Origin: Mesotoga sp. BH458_6_3_2_1
GTDB taxonomy: Bacteria; Thermotogota; Thermotogae; Petrotogales; Kosmotogaceae
Reading direction: 5' to 3'
Length of the DNA stretch: 64,000 nucleotides
Assembly: GCF_003664995.1 (NCBI RefSeq)
Contig: NZ_JFHL01000005.1
Location: 62,001 to 126,000, forward strand
The notes beneath the pieces were generated by a model, which saw nothing but the letters and a program-made list of their open reading frames with translations, had not been told where the DNA came from and did no database searches. Positions 6,482 through 37,615 of this stretch are shown one piece after another (positions within the stretch are counted from its first letter, which is position 1; each line of letters begins with the position of its first letter). Made by a program: the position numbers and the translations under genes.

Positions 6482-7568
6482 TATACGACTGCGCGCCTTT
6501 TAGGGCTTGATCGACTGTCATAGCGCCACTATATATAGCCTGCAAAGCTGGTTCCAGGGCTTCAAACAAAAGGGATTGGTACCCGGGACGATTGGGCATA
6601 AATCTTCCTTCGTCTATGATCTCTTCCAGTTCGGGAAGCCAGTCGGAACGGAATAGGGGATATTTGTCGCACTGAACGAAAAACTCCCTGCTGTGCTCGT
6701 TGAGGAAGTTTATGAAACTGAGACACTGGTCGCGGGTTTCTCCGTTGAAAAGAGCAAAGCCCTTCGAGTCTATTACACCTTTGATCTCTACGCCCTCGAG
6801 ATCGGGAAAAGGCACCATTGCGAATTTCGGCCCCTTCTCTCTGAATTTCTCGGCCATATAGCTTCCCTGGAGCATTATCCCGATTTTTCCCTGTCTGAAG
6901 AGACCATTCATTGCAGCTCTCTCTAGCCTCGAGATAGTCCCTTCGTCAAAGTATTTCATAACCTTCGATACAGCTTCTATGCTTCCTTGAGATCCCACAA
7001 GAAGATTTTCCGTCTCTTCCTCGGATTGCAGGGCCGAAACGTATGGAAACATTACGTAAGGGGATGTGAAATCGAATGCTATCGGGTAATCGACAACGCC
7101 GGCGAGCCTTTCTTCTATCAGTTCGAATTGAGAAAAGTCAAGTCCTTCTTCGAGATTCAATCCAGCTTGCTCAAACGCGTCGATATTGACAAAGGCAACC
7201 TGACTGTCCGCATAGTAGGGAACTGCTCCGACAACACCGTTCCAGATATATGGACTGAGATATCTTTCCGGGTAGTCTTTAAGCGCATCTTCCGAAATAG
7301 GGAGGCTCTTGTCTGAAGAGGCTACATCCCCTATATATGTATCTTTTATCAAAGCGGCATCGGGCAGATCACCTGTCTTCAGACTGATATTCAGCTTTTC
7401 CTCGATCTTGGGGAAGTAAACGATCTCTACAGGTATGCCTGTCTGGTTATAGAAATCGTCCGCAGCCTGTCTGTAGAAGGCCTCGCCTTCCCAGCTCACC
7501 CAGAAAGTTATGCTTAAGGCTGCCGAACAGAGCAATACAGCAAGTGCAGATGCAAGTAACTTCTTCAT
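6465..7568 (-). CDS. Extracellular solute-binding protein (family 1 type)
   Basis: 367 residues with a signal peptide (about 1-19) and the typical early motif ITFWVSWEG. GGAGG lies just before the ATG, inside the end of the molybdenum hydroxylase gene, and only 1 bp separates the two genes, so they are surely co-transcribed. The fold is that of family 1 binding proteins, which carry sugars, polyamines, iron or other solutes, so the ligand cannot be read from the sequence. Context suggests a purine, urate or a related nitrogen compound. No lipobox Cys is seen, so the protein is probably periplasmic. Confidence 0.85.
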   Translation of the reverse strand: MKKLLASALAVLLCSAALSITFWVSWEGEAFYRQAADDFYNQTGIPVEIVYFPKIEEKLNISLKTGDLPDAALIKDTYIGDVASSDKSLPISEDALKDYPERYLSPYIWNGVVGAVPYYADSQVAFVNIDAFEQAGLNLEEGLDFSQFELIEERLAGVVDYPIAFDFTSPYVMFPYVSALQSEEETENLLVGSQGSIEAVSKVMKYFDEGTISRLERAAMNGLFRQGKIGIMLQGSYMAEKFREKGPKFAMVPFPDLEGVEIKGVIDSKGFALFNGETRDQCLSFINFLNEHSREFFVQCDKYPLFRSDWLPELEEIIDEGRFMPNRPGYQSLLFEALEPALQAIYSGAMTVDQALKGAQSYIESVW

Positions 7569-34480: not shown

Positions 34481-34511
34481 AAAGAAAAGAGCGCCTGGCG
34501 CTCTTTTCTTT
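34481..34511. terminator. Bidirectional terminator between trxB and the LD-carboxypeptidase gene
   Basis: A 14-bp stem (34481-34494 with 34498-34511) around a CTG loop, GC-rich at the tip and A-rich/T-rich at the base, so it has a T run in both directions. It serves the two convergent genes. Confidence 0.85.
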
Positions 34512-35454
34512 ATTTTATCTTCGCTTCGGGAACCGATACTATCTCTATTGTTCCCTTTTCCATGTCAATCTCTACCCAGCGGCCCACCGGAAGAACGACT
34601 TTAGGAAAGTCACCATGATAACTTGGTAAGCCAATCCAGACGGGTATTTCCTTATCGAGAAAATAGTCGTGAATCATTCTCTTGATATCATCCAGGTCGC
34701 CGTTCTTTATCTCCGTGAATCCCGCAAAAACGACCCCCCTAAGAGATGAGAAGTCATCGAGATGTGCAATATTCCAGATCATCCTTTCAAGAGACTCTTT
34801 TGTCTCACTCACATCTTCAAGCACGAGGATCGCGTCCTTAAGAGAACCGAGATACTCTGTTCCCTGAAGCGCCTGGAACAATGAAAGATTGGCTGGAATT
34901 AATCTGCCGATCATCTTTCCTTCGATTACCGGGATAGACTGATAGTTGAAGCGAATCGTACTTTCACCGTTGAAGATAGCGGCGATGTTCTGGACGGACC
35001 TGGTATCCGATCCAAGCTCAACGGCAACCATTGGACCGTGAAATGTCGTTTGACCGGTCTTGAAATAGATGGAGAGGAGCAAGGCCGTGATATCGCTGTA
35101 ACCTACCAGAGGCTTTGGATTAGAAGCAATTACCTCCCAATCGAGCCAATCGAGGAGGTTGTACGAACCATATCCTCCTCTCGCCGCAATAATTGCATCG
35201 TACTCCGGATTCGCAAAAGCGTCGTTCAGCTCATTTGCCTTTTCTCTAGAAGAAAGAGAGACTTCGCAGCTTCTGCCTACTATGACTCTGTATCCCACAT
35301 TTCTCAAGGCGCTTACGCCGGCCTCGAGCTTCGATCTTTCGGGAAAGCTTGCCGGTGCTGTAACGAAAATCGTTCTTATCTCTTTAGAAATCAATACGGA
35401 CGAAGTCAAAAACATGCCAACACACAACATAAGTATCAACCATACCCTTCTCAT
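34510..35454 (-). CDS. LD-carboxypeptidase family protein (S66), exported
   Basis: 314 residues from the ATG at 35454 with GGAGGAACTC upstream. It begins with a signal peptide or anchor (about 1-22), then the S66 fold: VTAPASFPERSKLEAG, ARGGYGSYNLLDWLDW and VGYSDITALLL, whose Ser is the nucleophile, followed by TFHGPMVAVEL. The family includes LD-carboxypeptidase A, which trims peptidoglycan tetrapeptides, and the microcin-resistance protein MccF. An exported form fits cell-wall recycling. Confidence 0.88.
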   Translation of the reverse strand: MRRVWLILMLCVGMFLTSSVLISKEIRTIFVTAPASFPERSKLEAGVSALRNVGYRVIVGRSCEVSLSSREKANELNDAFANPEYDAIIAARGGYGSYNLLDWLDWEVIASNPKPLVGYSDITALLLSIYFKTGQTTFHGPMVAVELGSDTRSVQNIAAIFNGESTIRFNYQSIPVIEGKMIGRLIPANLSLFQALQGTEYLGSLKDAILVLEDVSETKESLERMIWNIAHLDDFSSLRGVVFAGFTEIKNGDLDDIKRMIHDYFLDKEIPVWIGLPSYHGDFPKVVLPVGRWVEIDMEKGTIEIVSVPEAKIK

Positions 35455-35622
35455 GAGTTCCTCCAACTTGGTTTACTAAGTATAGTTTGCCATTCATGAG
35501 GGCTAAAATCAATACGCAACAGGCAATTCCCGAAAAAAACATGCCGTTAACAATTGAGATCTAAATAAGACTAGAAAAACCATTGTCGAGAAGTTCGCTG
35601 AGAACACGAGAAAGCGAGAAAA

Positions 35623-35702
35623 GCCAGTCTGCTGACGCAGGCCAGTCAGGCTTCGCCTGGCCAGTCTCGCCTACGGCGAGGCCAGTTCCGACTTCGTCGG
35701 GC
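35623..35702. repeat. Hairpin array A, copy 1: four GCCAGT-plus-palindrome units
   Basis: Four units in a row, each GCCAGT followed by a short perfect palindrome: CTGC-TGAC-GCAG, CAGGC-TTC-GCCTG, CTCGCC-TAC-GGCGAG and CCGAC-TTC-GTCGG. Units are 18-22 bp. The spacer is constant while the stems differ. Confidence 0.9.
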
Positions 35703-36033
35703 AAACAAAGACCATTGAGAAAAAGCATTGCGGAGAGGTTCGCTGCGCTCACGAGAGAAGAGAGAGAGAGAAGAAACCAGTAAGATTGGCGATGAAACTT
35801 ACCCCGTCACATGCATATCTTTGATCTCACTTTGACTAACCAAGAAAAGACCCTTCCTCTGGAATTTTTTCCTCATTGACGTCTGCTCTTCTCGGAGAAC
35901 GGTGGACCGCCGACGGACAACGTTGTCTTCACAGCGATCAGCAGGTTTTCTCTAGGGTTGAGCGGATCTTTTTGTGTGAATAGACGGGGACCTCAGGCGC
36001 TCGTCCGTCCCCAATTCCGTTCCCTTATCAGTG

Positions 36034-36067
36034 CTCTTTCGGGCGAACAGCCGTTCGCCCCTACAAA
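36034..36067. repeat. 34-bp palindromic repeat, copy 1
   Basis: Contains the 8-bp stem GGGCGAAC / GTTCGCCC around AGCC, followed by CTACAAA. Identical to the copy at 36379-36412. Short GGGCGA...TCGCCC palindromes ending in CTAC occur as dispersed REP-like elements in many bacterial genomes. Confidence 0.9.
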
Positions 36068-36113
36068 CAGCCGACAAATTCTTCTGAACTTGATTCAGCA
36101 TCCTGTTCTTCAA

Positions 36114-36211
36114 AACCCGATTCTCATAACCCGCTTTTATCAACCCGATCTTGCTAACCCGAATTTCATAACCCGGGTCTAGTAACCCGATCCTCGTAAC
36201 CCGCTCCTAGA
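36114..36211. repeat. 14-bp tandem repeat array, seven units
   Basis: Seven consecutive 14-bp units, each starting AACCCG and followed by a variable 8-mer, often ATTCTCAT-like (ATCTTGCT, AATTTCAT, ATCCTCGT and so on). The AACCCG core is invariant in all seven. The period is not a multiple of three, so it is not coding. Confidence 0.9.
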
Positions 36212-36223
36212 CTCTGCTCTTTC

Positions 36224-36327
36224 CCCGCGAAGCGGGCATTGCGTCCTGGCATGTTCTTCGCCAGTCTTGCGTCCACTGATGCTCCTCAGTGCATTGCGAC
36301 CGCCGATGCTTCTCGACGCATTGCGGC
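36224..36327. repeat. Hairpin array B: palindromes separated by a CATTGCGNC-type spacer
   Basis: Palindromes CCCGC-GAA-GCGGG, CTGGC...GCCAG, CACTGA-TGCTCC-TCAGTG and CGCCGA-TGCTTC-TCGACG (one mismatch) alternate with the 9-base spacers CATTGCGTC, TCTTGCGTC, CATTGCGAC and CATTGCGGC. Confidence 0.85.
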
Positions 36328-36378
36328 TTCTCCTATGGTCCCTTTTTTCGAGTAAAAGGCAGAGATTCCAACCAAGAC

Positions 36379-36412
36379 CTCTTTCGGGCGAACAGCCGTT
36401 CGCCCCTACAAA
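36379..36412. repeat. 34-bp palindromic repeat, copy 2
   Basis: Identical over 34 bases to 36034-36067, in the same orientation, 345 bp apart. Contains the GGGCGAAC / GTTCGCCC stem and the CTACAAA tail. Confidence 0.9.
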
Positions 36413-36507
36413 AGATCGCATAATCGTCTGATATTGTAATCCCGTAGCTTTTCGAATAGTGGGCTGACGAGCTCCTGACGTCTGTCTACGTCTATTCACA
36501 ATAGGAA

Positions 36508-36568
36508 CCAGTCAGGCTTTGCCTGGCCAGTCTCGCCTTCGGCGAGGCCAGTTCCGACTTCGTCGGGC
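36508..36568. repeat. Hairpin array A, copy 2: three units
   Basis: Same order as the last three units of copy 1: CAGGC-TTT-GCCTG, CTCGCC-TTC-GGCGAG and CCGAC-TTC-GTCGG with (G)CCAGT spacers. The only differences within these units from copy 1 are single bases in the loops (TTC to TTT, TAC to TTC); all stem bases are kept. The first spacer lacks its leading G. Confidence 0.9.
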
Positions 36569-36626
36569 CTAAGAATCTCACACAGATTAGAGGACTGTCA
36601 GATAACGAAAACAAGAAGAGACTGTC

Positions 36627-36651
36627 ATCCCGTGATGCTTTTGCACGGGAT
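36627..36651. repeat. Single hairpin with 8-bp stem
   Basis: ATCCCGTG (36627-36634) pairs with CACGGGAT (36644-36651) around a 9-base loop containing ATGCTTTTG. The loop contains the TGCTTT theme seen in arrays B and C. Preceded by CTGTC. Confidence 0.8.
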
Positions 36652-36720
36652 CTCATTCTAAGAACCGCTGAACGCTCAAGAACGAAAACCCGCTGACCTG
36701 ACAGGCTTCCTGCGAAACAG

Positions 36721-36805
36721 CATCACTTCCTCGCGCAGCGAGCCTCACTTCCCCGGATGTTACTCCGGGCATCACTTCCTGGGATGTTCTTCCCAGCATC
36801 ACTTC
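36721..36805. repeat. Hairpin array C: three palindromes separated by CATCACTTC
   Basis: CATCACTTC (or CCTCACTTC) at 36721, 36743, 36770 and 36797 separates CTCGC-GCA-GCGAG, CCCGGA-TGTTAC-TCCGGG and CTGGGA-TGTTCT-TCCCAG. The spacer length is nine as in array B, and the two longer hairpins share with array B a six-base loop of TGYTNY form closed by GA/TC. Confidence 0.88.
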
Positions 36806-36868
36806 TGCTCTTTCCAGGCCCGGTTCTAACTGAGAGATCACTAGAGAAACCGTCATCGCAAGGAAGTG

Positions 36869-37615
36869 CTACACAATTGCCGAGAGGTCCGTCAAAAACT
36901 CGGCTATTTCCTCCGACATTGAGTCGAAGAACTGGGCTGGACTGCAATCCGCTGAGATTTCACCGTTCTTGAAGAAGATCACACGATTGGCAATGTGCTT
37001 TGCAAATTCAACTTCGTGCGTGACGATAATCATGGTTCTACCTTCCGAAGAAAGCCGCCTGATTACCCTCATGACCTCACCGACGAGCGACGGATCGAGA
37101 GCGGAAGTAGGTTCGTCCAGGAGCACGATATCGGGATTCATGACTAGTGCTCTGGCTATGCCCACTCTCTGCTGCTGGCCTCCTGAAAGCTGAGACGGGT
37201 GATTGTTCAACTTGTCGGCGAGGCCGACTTGACTTAGCTGAACTTCGGCCGCCTTTCTGGCATCAACCCAAGTCATGTTTTTTACTTTTACGAGAGGAAG
37301 CGCAACATTGTCGATGATTTTGAGGTGACTTATCAAGTTGAATCTCTGAAATACGAATCCAACTCTTGACCTGAAGGCCCTTATTGAATGCTTCGTTCGC
37401 TGCACCTGACTACCTTTGAAAAATACCTCGCCCCTGTCGGGAGTGATTAAATTGTTGATACAGCGGAGGAGAGTTGTCTTTCCTGCCCCGGAAGCGCCGA
37501 GAACGGCAATCACGTCACCCTCCTTGACTTCAAAGGAGACATCCTTAAGAACCACCTGGCCGTCAAATGACTTGGTCAGGTTCAAGAGTTTGAGTATTAC
37601 TTTTTCATCCTTCAT
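36869..37615 (-). CDS. Polar amino-acid ABC importer ATPase, GlnQ-like
   Basis: 248 residues. Walker A GASGAGKTT (about 35-43), signature LSGGQQQRVGIARAL (about 139-153), Walker B IVLLDEPTSALDP and the H-loop VTHEVEFA are all intact, as in the GlnQ/HisP group. The start overlaps the permease stop by 4 bp (ATGA). It powers the importer whose other parts are the next two genes. Confidence 0.92.
   Translation of the reverse strand: MKDEKVILKLLNLTKSFDGQVVLKDVSFEVKEGDVIAVLGASGAGKTTLLRCINNLITPDRGEVFFKGSQVQRTKHSIRAFRSRVGFVFQRFNLISHLKIIDNVALPLVKVKNMTWVDARKAAEVQLSQVGLADKLNNHPSQLSGGQQQRVGIARALVMNPDIVLLDEPTSALDPSLVGEVMRVIRRLSSEGRTMIIVTHEVEFAKHIANRVIFFKNGEISADCSPAQFFDSMSEEIAEFLTDLSAIV

Follow-up and report, generated by a model that had tools for sequence, protein, structure and literature searches.

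The window analysed here, a 64,000-nt stretch of the genome of Mesotoga sp. BH458_6_3_2_1, contains an intergenic gap of 1402 bp (35467–36868). It lies between an LD-carboxypeptidase gene (34510–35466, minus strand; Pfam Peptidase_S66) and an amino-acid ABC transporter ATPase gene (36869–37615, minus strand; Pfam ABC_tran). A non-coding island of 1.4 kb had been predicted at 35455–36868; the gene-free gap is real, with its borders corrected to the positions given above. The sole open reading frame of more than 100 aa inside the gap (36179–36499, minus strand) overlaps repeats and had no Pfam match. No credible gene and no transposase, cas or integrase gene was found in the gap by ORF and Pfam scans, in line with the predicted absence of genes, transposases and cas genes. 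Promoter and terminator scans of the gap gave chance levels only. We describe the whole gap as a mosaic without strand, based on the ORFs, the two flanking Pfam matches and the coverage of its repeats by HSPs to other islands. The two GCCAGT arrays, two arrays with nine-base spacers, 14-bp array and duplicated 34-bp repeat of the original prediction were all found where it had placed them. The elements it had missed are a CGTC-type REP (36623–36653) and two 46-bp palindromes (35978–36017 and 36454–36497).

The two copies of the 34-nt repeat (36034–36067 and 36379–36412) are 100% identical, with 0 such pairs expected by chance. What had been called a 34-bp palindrome is really a 20-nt palindrome with an 8-bp stem within a repeated module of ∼119 bp (36330–36448, plus strand), which was delimited by genome matches and carries the second copy. 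Both copies are GTAG-type REPs on the minus strand. In the first, an unpaired GTAG (36061–36064, minus strand) adjoins the 8-bp stem with its 4-nt loop (36041–36060), and the REP folds beyond shuffles (z = −4.2). GTAG-type REPs have been described as palindromes with a 6–13 bp stem beside an unpaired GTAG (PMC3733652; PMC8266576). As expected for a REP, the sequence is high-copy and mostly intergenic: the core has 74 exact copies in the source genome (G000; 3.23 Mb in 36 contigs) against 0 in the reversed control, and was intergenic in 15 of 16 cases in the G003 sample. The ∼119-bp module has at least 42 matches in the source genome, at least 43 in G003 and at least 40 in G006. On C1 of G003 the modules are strongly concentrated in two regions, ∼1.16–1.28 Mb and 165–195 kb (L106, L107, L080), and the sampled part of 250–890 kb was free of islands. 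The 20-kb stretch L106 in the REP-rich part of this genome also encodes a mutator-type transposase and AbiEi/AbiEii-like, AbiL-like and PIN proteins. The exact core of the GTAG REP was additionally seen on three viral contigs from IMG/VR (L151, L152, L153).

The REP of the second type (36623–36653, plus strand) has the composition TGTC AT CCCGTG loop CACGGG AT CT, that is, a TGTC tag followed by the stem ATCCCGTG/CACGGGAT, and folds with z = −4.4. This agrees with the CGTC-3 family, for which a CGTC or TGTC tag, A-T pairs starting the stem and a stem of 8–9 bp have been reported (PMC3733652). The CGTC REP pattern gave 78 matches in half of G003 and 0 in the control.

The first of the 46-bp palindromes (35978–36017, minus strand) is a degenerate copy (GAATAGGGGACTGAC...GTCTGTCCCCGTCTATTC) that was assigned by sequence comparison, its lone fold not going beyond shuffles. 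The second (36454–36497, plus strand) was assigned by comparison and fold. Both are of the type that flanks a RAYT-like gene outside the window. The source genome has two genes for RAYT-related Y1 transposases, whose products score 61 and 57 bits, short of the 80 bits that NCBIfam requires for REP_Tyr_transpos. One of these genes (L058, 7339–8202) has the 46-bp palindrome on both sides, at 7280 and 8207. The stretch L058:7280–8250 is thereby a TIRtron-like unit, with a Y1 gene between copies of the GGGGACTGAC...GTCTGTACCC palindrome. TIRtrons have been described as tyrosine transposases (TIRYT) with terminal inverted repeats of the motif GGGGWSAS (PMC3733652). The palindrome is dispersed, with 49 fuzzy matches (both strands counted) in the G000 sample, which consists of stretches mostly picked around REPs and is biased in this respect, against 1 in the control. 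As the flanks of the RAYT-like gene match the TIRtron layout, the solitary 46-bp palindromes are likely to be non-autonomous copies of a TIRtron-like unit.

A REP lies ∼500 bp from this gene, whose direct flanks are the 46-bp palindrome. Every repeat family was present in G003 and no Y1 transposase was found there. Conversely, G001 and G004 have Y1 transposases and lack the REP module.

The remaining repeats form arrays. Family A is represented by two GCCAGT hairpin arrays on the plus strand, one with the stems CTGC, CAGGC, CTCGCC and CCGAC (35623–35702) and one with CAGGC, CTCGCC and CCGAC (36508–36568); the second is 97% identical to the first over 61 nt. Array B (36218–36325, minus strand; stem order CCCGC, CTGGC, CACTG, CGCCG-like) has the nine-base linker CATTGCGTC/GACGCAATG, and array C (36706–36805, minus strand) the nine-base linker CATCACTTC/GAAGTGATG. 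The 14-bp array (TAACCCG; 36114–36203, plus strand) consists of AACCCG followed by 8 variable bases. That all of these were hairpin arrays was borne out for part of them. Folding beyond shuffles was seen for the GCCAGT arrays (z = −3.3) and for array C with its CATCACTTC linker (z = −2.25). The 14-bp array, in which 6 tandem matches were counted where shuffles predict 0, folds no better than shuffles (z = −0.4) and is thus no array of hairpins. Taken in its entirety, the CATTGCGTC array does not fold beyond shuffles either (z = −0.9); its individual hairpins are still visible. Repeated linkers marked 24 arrays in 423 kb of the REP-centred G000 sample, compared with zero in shuffled sequence.

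Within the arrays the stems change while linker and loop stay constant. With units delimited by their linkers alone, so that complementarity was not demanded, own-arm pairing exceeded cross-arm pairing in family B (4.83 vs. 2.61 of 5), family C (4.67 vs. 3.13) and family A (3.76 vs. 1.95). Some arrays contain broken stems, chiefly in family A. One 8-nt loop, AAAAGCAT, occurs with the perfect stems CGCCG, CCCGG, CTGGG, CGGCG and CACTG. Identical loops with differing perfect stems mean that both arms changed together. Single stem mismatches comprised 13 G-T and 17 A-C pairs, i.e., there was no excess of G-T. Mismatches of the A-C kind being as frequent as G-T, selection of the stems at the RNA level is unsupported, and the numbers argue for a process on DNA. 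A comparison of substitutions in stems and loops between G000 and G003 covered 4 long alignments, with 2 events in arrays. The order of stems in family B (CCGGC, CACTG, CTGGC, CCCGC) is kept between arrays, so stem divergence preceded the spread of whole arrays as units.

Arrays A and B are found in the majority of species of the genus but hardly anywhere else in the order (A, B) or the phylum (B), and within the order the 14-bp array is confined to the genus Mesotoga. One B array and two A arrays were seen in G032, a genome of the same family and another genus, by transfer or contamination. In G007, dense runs of B arrays (L154–L158) lie on one strand over ∼30 kb in C8 and mostly on the opposite strand in C11.

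The modules recur across the genome. In a BLAST search of the gap against other islands, 35565–36825 was almost wholly covered, and nearly all of this part recurs elsewhere in the same genome and in close Mesotoga relatives. Unique DNA is confined to the two gene-proximal ends, with ∼100 bp at one and 40 bp at the second. The modules were found in dozens of other gaps, which makes the locus in the window one island among many. Larger blocks of 250–350 bp combining two families also recur (35620–35970, 36218–36497 and 36034–36325). The first of them, a dispersed segment of ∼340 bp on the plus strand that starts with a GCCAGT array, is found at 85–88% in L058 and L063, and a further inverted copy lies beside the RAYT gene (L058, ∼6940–7270).

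The families also cluster. In a half-sample of G003 (every second 20 kb; 75 stretches of 20 kb), 9 gaps held three or more families, against 2.3 expected and at most 7 in 1000 placements in which clusters were dealt to gaps according to length. For every family in this sample the majority of matches was intergenic. The co-occurrence is partly explained by block copying, as the two-family blocks at 36034–36325 and 36218–36497 recur. Relative orientation is kept as well: REP, CGTC REP and 14-bp array share one direction, and B and C have the opposite one. In the G000 sample, same and opposite orientations numbered 28 and 1 for REP and 14-bp array, 0 and 10 for B and 14-bp array, 0 and 14 for C and 14-bp array, 12 and 0 for B and C, and 1 and 22 for B and CGTC-3; the counts in G003 were 4 and 0 for B and C, and 9 and 0 for REP and 14-bp array. 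Family A is less strict and runs counter to its usual sense in the window. The families had been called unrelated. There are indeed several distinct ones, but they co-occur above chance, in fixed relative orientation and partly in recurring two-family blocks.

On C1 of G003, the polarity of the islands stays coherent across more than 100 kb (sign product 0.50–0.56 at 30–120 kb; 0 of 300 permutations). It switches near 2.09 and 2.79 Mb and not at dnaA (1.1 kb). GC skew gave no clear replichores. A simple lagging-strand rule tied to the replication fork is unsupported, polarity being unchanged across dnaA and GC skew being uninformative. This long-range polarity is a testable property of the islands.

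The gap's content is subject to turnover between species. Using the flanking genes as anchors we located the homologous gap in four relatives. In G003 it is unchanged at 1414 bp apart from 13 substitutions. In G006 it is of similar length and contains the same families reordered, with hairpin units lost; its array C includes a hybrid hairpin, CCCGG..CCCAG, that fuses two units of the window across a 27-bp deletion. In G007 it holds different B/C arrays and a broken transposase, and in G009 it is 147 bp long and free of repeats. The comparison of the gap that had been proposed as a check thus revealed turnover among relatives, some of which have it rearranged or empty, and this rules out a conserved locus. 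In the G007 gap the transposase remnant (L045:7380–7690) is C-terminal and belongs to the mutator family (PF00872). Between near-identical strains, no insertion with precise target borders was detected.

Taken together, the gap is probably a fast-turnover intergenic mosaic of short non-coding repeats, in which REPs and 46-bp palindromes would be spread by ssDNA transposases and the arrays would be passengers. GTAG-REP modules, CGTC REPs, palindromes like those flanking the RAYT-like gene, hairpin arrays and the 14-bp array would have gathered in one gap as elements inserted, multi-family blocks were copied and 27-bp hairpin units were gained and lost in tandem. The enzymes spreading the REPs and 46-bp palindromes would be single-strand transposases of the HUH superfamily (IS200/RAYT-type). 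The hairpin arrays may ride along. Two processes acting on DNA could keep their stems self-complementary: folded ssDNA may be the recognised or copied form, or one arm may be mended from the other by template switching. Against this reading stand the repeats of G003 alongside no Y1 gene, the Y1 genes of G001 and G004 alongside no REP module, the scores of both RAYT-like proteins under the cut-off, the lack of a cleanly bounded insertion between near-identical strains, and the broken stems in some arrays. The prediction had offered a hot spot for passive elements or a functional structured locus; the former fits, and the latter does not, as the gap content turns over between species.

We consider it unlikely that the islands are remnants of a single decayed mobile element of 1–1.5 kb that once carried all parts. 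Such an origin could account for the recurrence of 250–350 bp two-family blocks with fixed relative orientation, and the RAYT gene in C7 lies within a mosaic of this kind. Family order and number vary between islands, however, the gap holds no coding remnant, and searches of plasmid and phage records with the gap gave zero matches. Moreover, the exact REP core is present in Cyanobacteria, Chloroflexi, Nitrospirae, Planctomycetes and others, besides one Mesotoga record, and is therefore not tied to the other, Mesotoga-restricted families.

Still less probable is a functional RNA or regulatory locus in which the arrays form a structured transcript controlling the flanking genes. Several hairpins do fold beyond shuffles, and stems are kept while loops vary, though this contrast is biased by groups being defined by their stems, for which reason we relied on the test of own-arm against cross-arm pairing. 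A structured RNA is expected to show conservation of the locus and covariation of the RNA type. Instead, an Rfam search of the gap gave zero matches, the mismatches have no G-U bias, and the content differs in G006 and G007 and is absent in G009 with the flanking genes retained. The families are also found in co-directional, convergent and divergent gaps, most of them having no consistent orientation to the flanking genes. An array of the CRISPR or integron sort, suggested by constant 6- or 9-nt words alternating with changing segments, can be dismissed with near certainty, since what alternates with these words are self-complementary hairpins and not unique spacers, their stems belonging to a small set that recurs in conserved order in many arrays, the locus has no cas or integrase gene, and linkers of 6–9 nt are far below the 24–48 bp of CRISPR repeats (PMC3733652).

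Within the preferred reading of a fast-turnover mosaic, we read arrays A, B and C as passive elements that persist in the form of DNA hairpins, by whatever unproven means they spread. More tentatively, and with more doubt than confidence, they could be a class of non-autonomous ssDNA element of their own. An enzyme would read linker and loop on folded DNA, leaving the stem free to vary as long as it pairs; arrays would grow, swap stems in both arms and spread with fixed strand polarity. TnpA-REP and related single-strand enzymes are reported to make contacts to the loop, irregular bases and a flanking motif, and few to the stem (PMC8266576), a pattern that would fit stem-variable arrays. In the open-licence literature we met no account of hairpin arrays that run head to tail, keep 6- or 9-nt linkers constant and exchange their stems; head-to-tail REP dimers are described there as absent or under-represented, and rare (PMC3733652). 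Hairpin arrays with changing stems and constant linkers and loops thus appear to be an undescribed variant.

REP-type mosaics are familiar from Proteobacteria and Neisseria, and here they occur at scale in a deep-branching phylum. The mosaic type is also extended by arrays in which the stem is changed in both arms with linker and loop constant. These arrays offer a natural test between palindromes kept by selection, enzyme recognition of folded single strands and template-switch correction.

Several components have been described already, namely GTAG and CGTC REPs, CGTC-3 in M. prima, TIRtrons and the mosaic intergenic clusters of Neisseria (PMC3733652). With published GTAG-REP/RAYT systems (PMC3733652; PMC8266576) the Mesotoga REP shares the GTAG tag and palindrome, the intergenic location, the many copies (∼70) and RAYT-like genes in the genome. 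It differs in sitting in a ∼119-bp module with other families, in that the RAYT-like gene examined is flanked by a different palindrome, and in occurring in G003 in the absence of a Y1 gene; GTAG REPs are not listed for Thermotogae in PMC3733652. The REP at 36623–36653 shows no notable difference from CGTC-3, a family known from M. prima and Kosmotoga olearia: the TGTC tag variant, AT as the first two stem pairs and the long unusual loop are as given for M. prima (PMC3733652), a species in which a 2025 survey counted many REP candidates (PMC12306157). In the hairpins of array B a CGTC-like linker end likewise precedes the hairpin, but they lack the AT pairs and are arranged head to tail. As in TIRtrons (PMC3733652), the L058 gene lies between palindromes (GGGGACTGAC) of which solitary copies are dispersed, two of them in the window; their motif is one base off GGGGWSAS, and the unit is a candidate mobile element. 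The 14-bp array resembles the TAACTGA direct repeats of Beggiatoaceae (PMC4679880) in having a short fixed word, here AACCCG per 14 bp, in intergenic arrays, and differs in the word, in the 8 variable bases that serve as spacing and in its restriction to Mesotoga within the order.

As a whole, the gap comes closest to BIMEs and the intergenic mosaic elements of Neisseria, which likewise are gene-free gaps of interleaved short repeat families; several such families are interleaved here in one non-coding gap, and at many loci. The turnover of its content between relatives places it with these mosaics rather than with conserved RNA loci. In the E. coli sense, BIMEs have REPs in alternating orientation, whereas both REPs of the gap have the same orientation. 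The repeat families are also different, and the hairpin units run head to tail in arrays with constant 6- or 9-nt linkers. Intergenic repeat mosaics are thus a known kind of “junk” patch, and it is the stem-changing arrays that look new.
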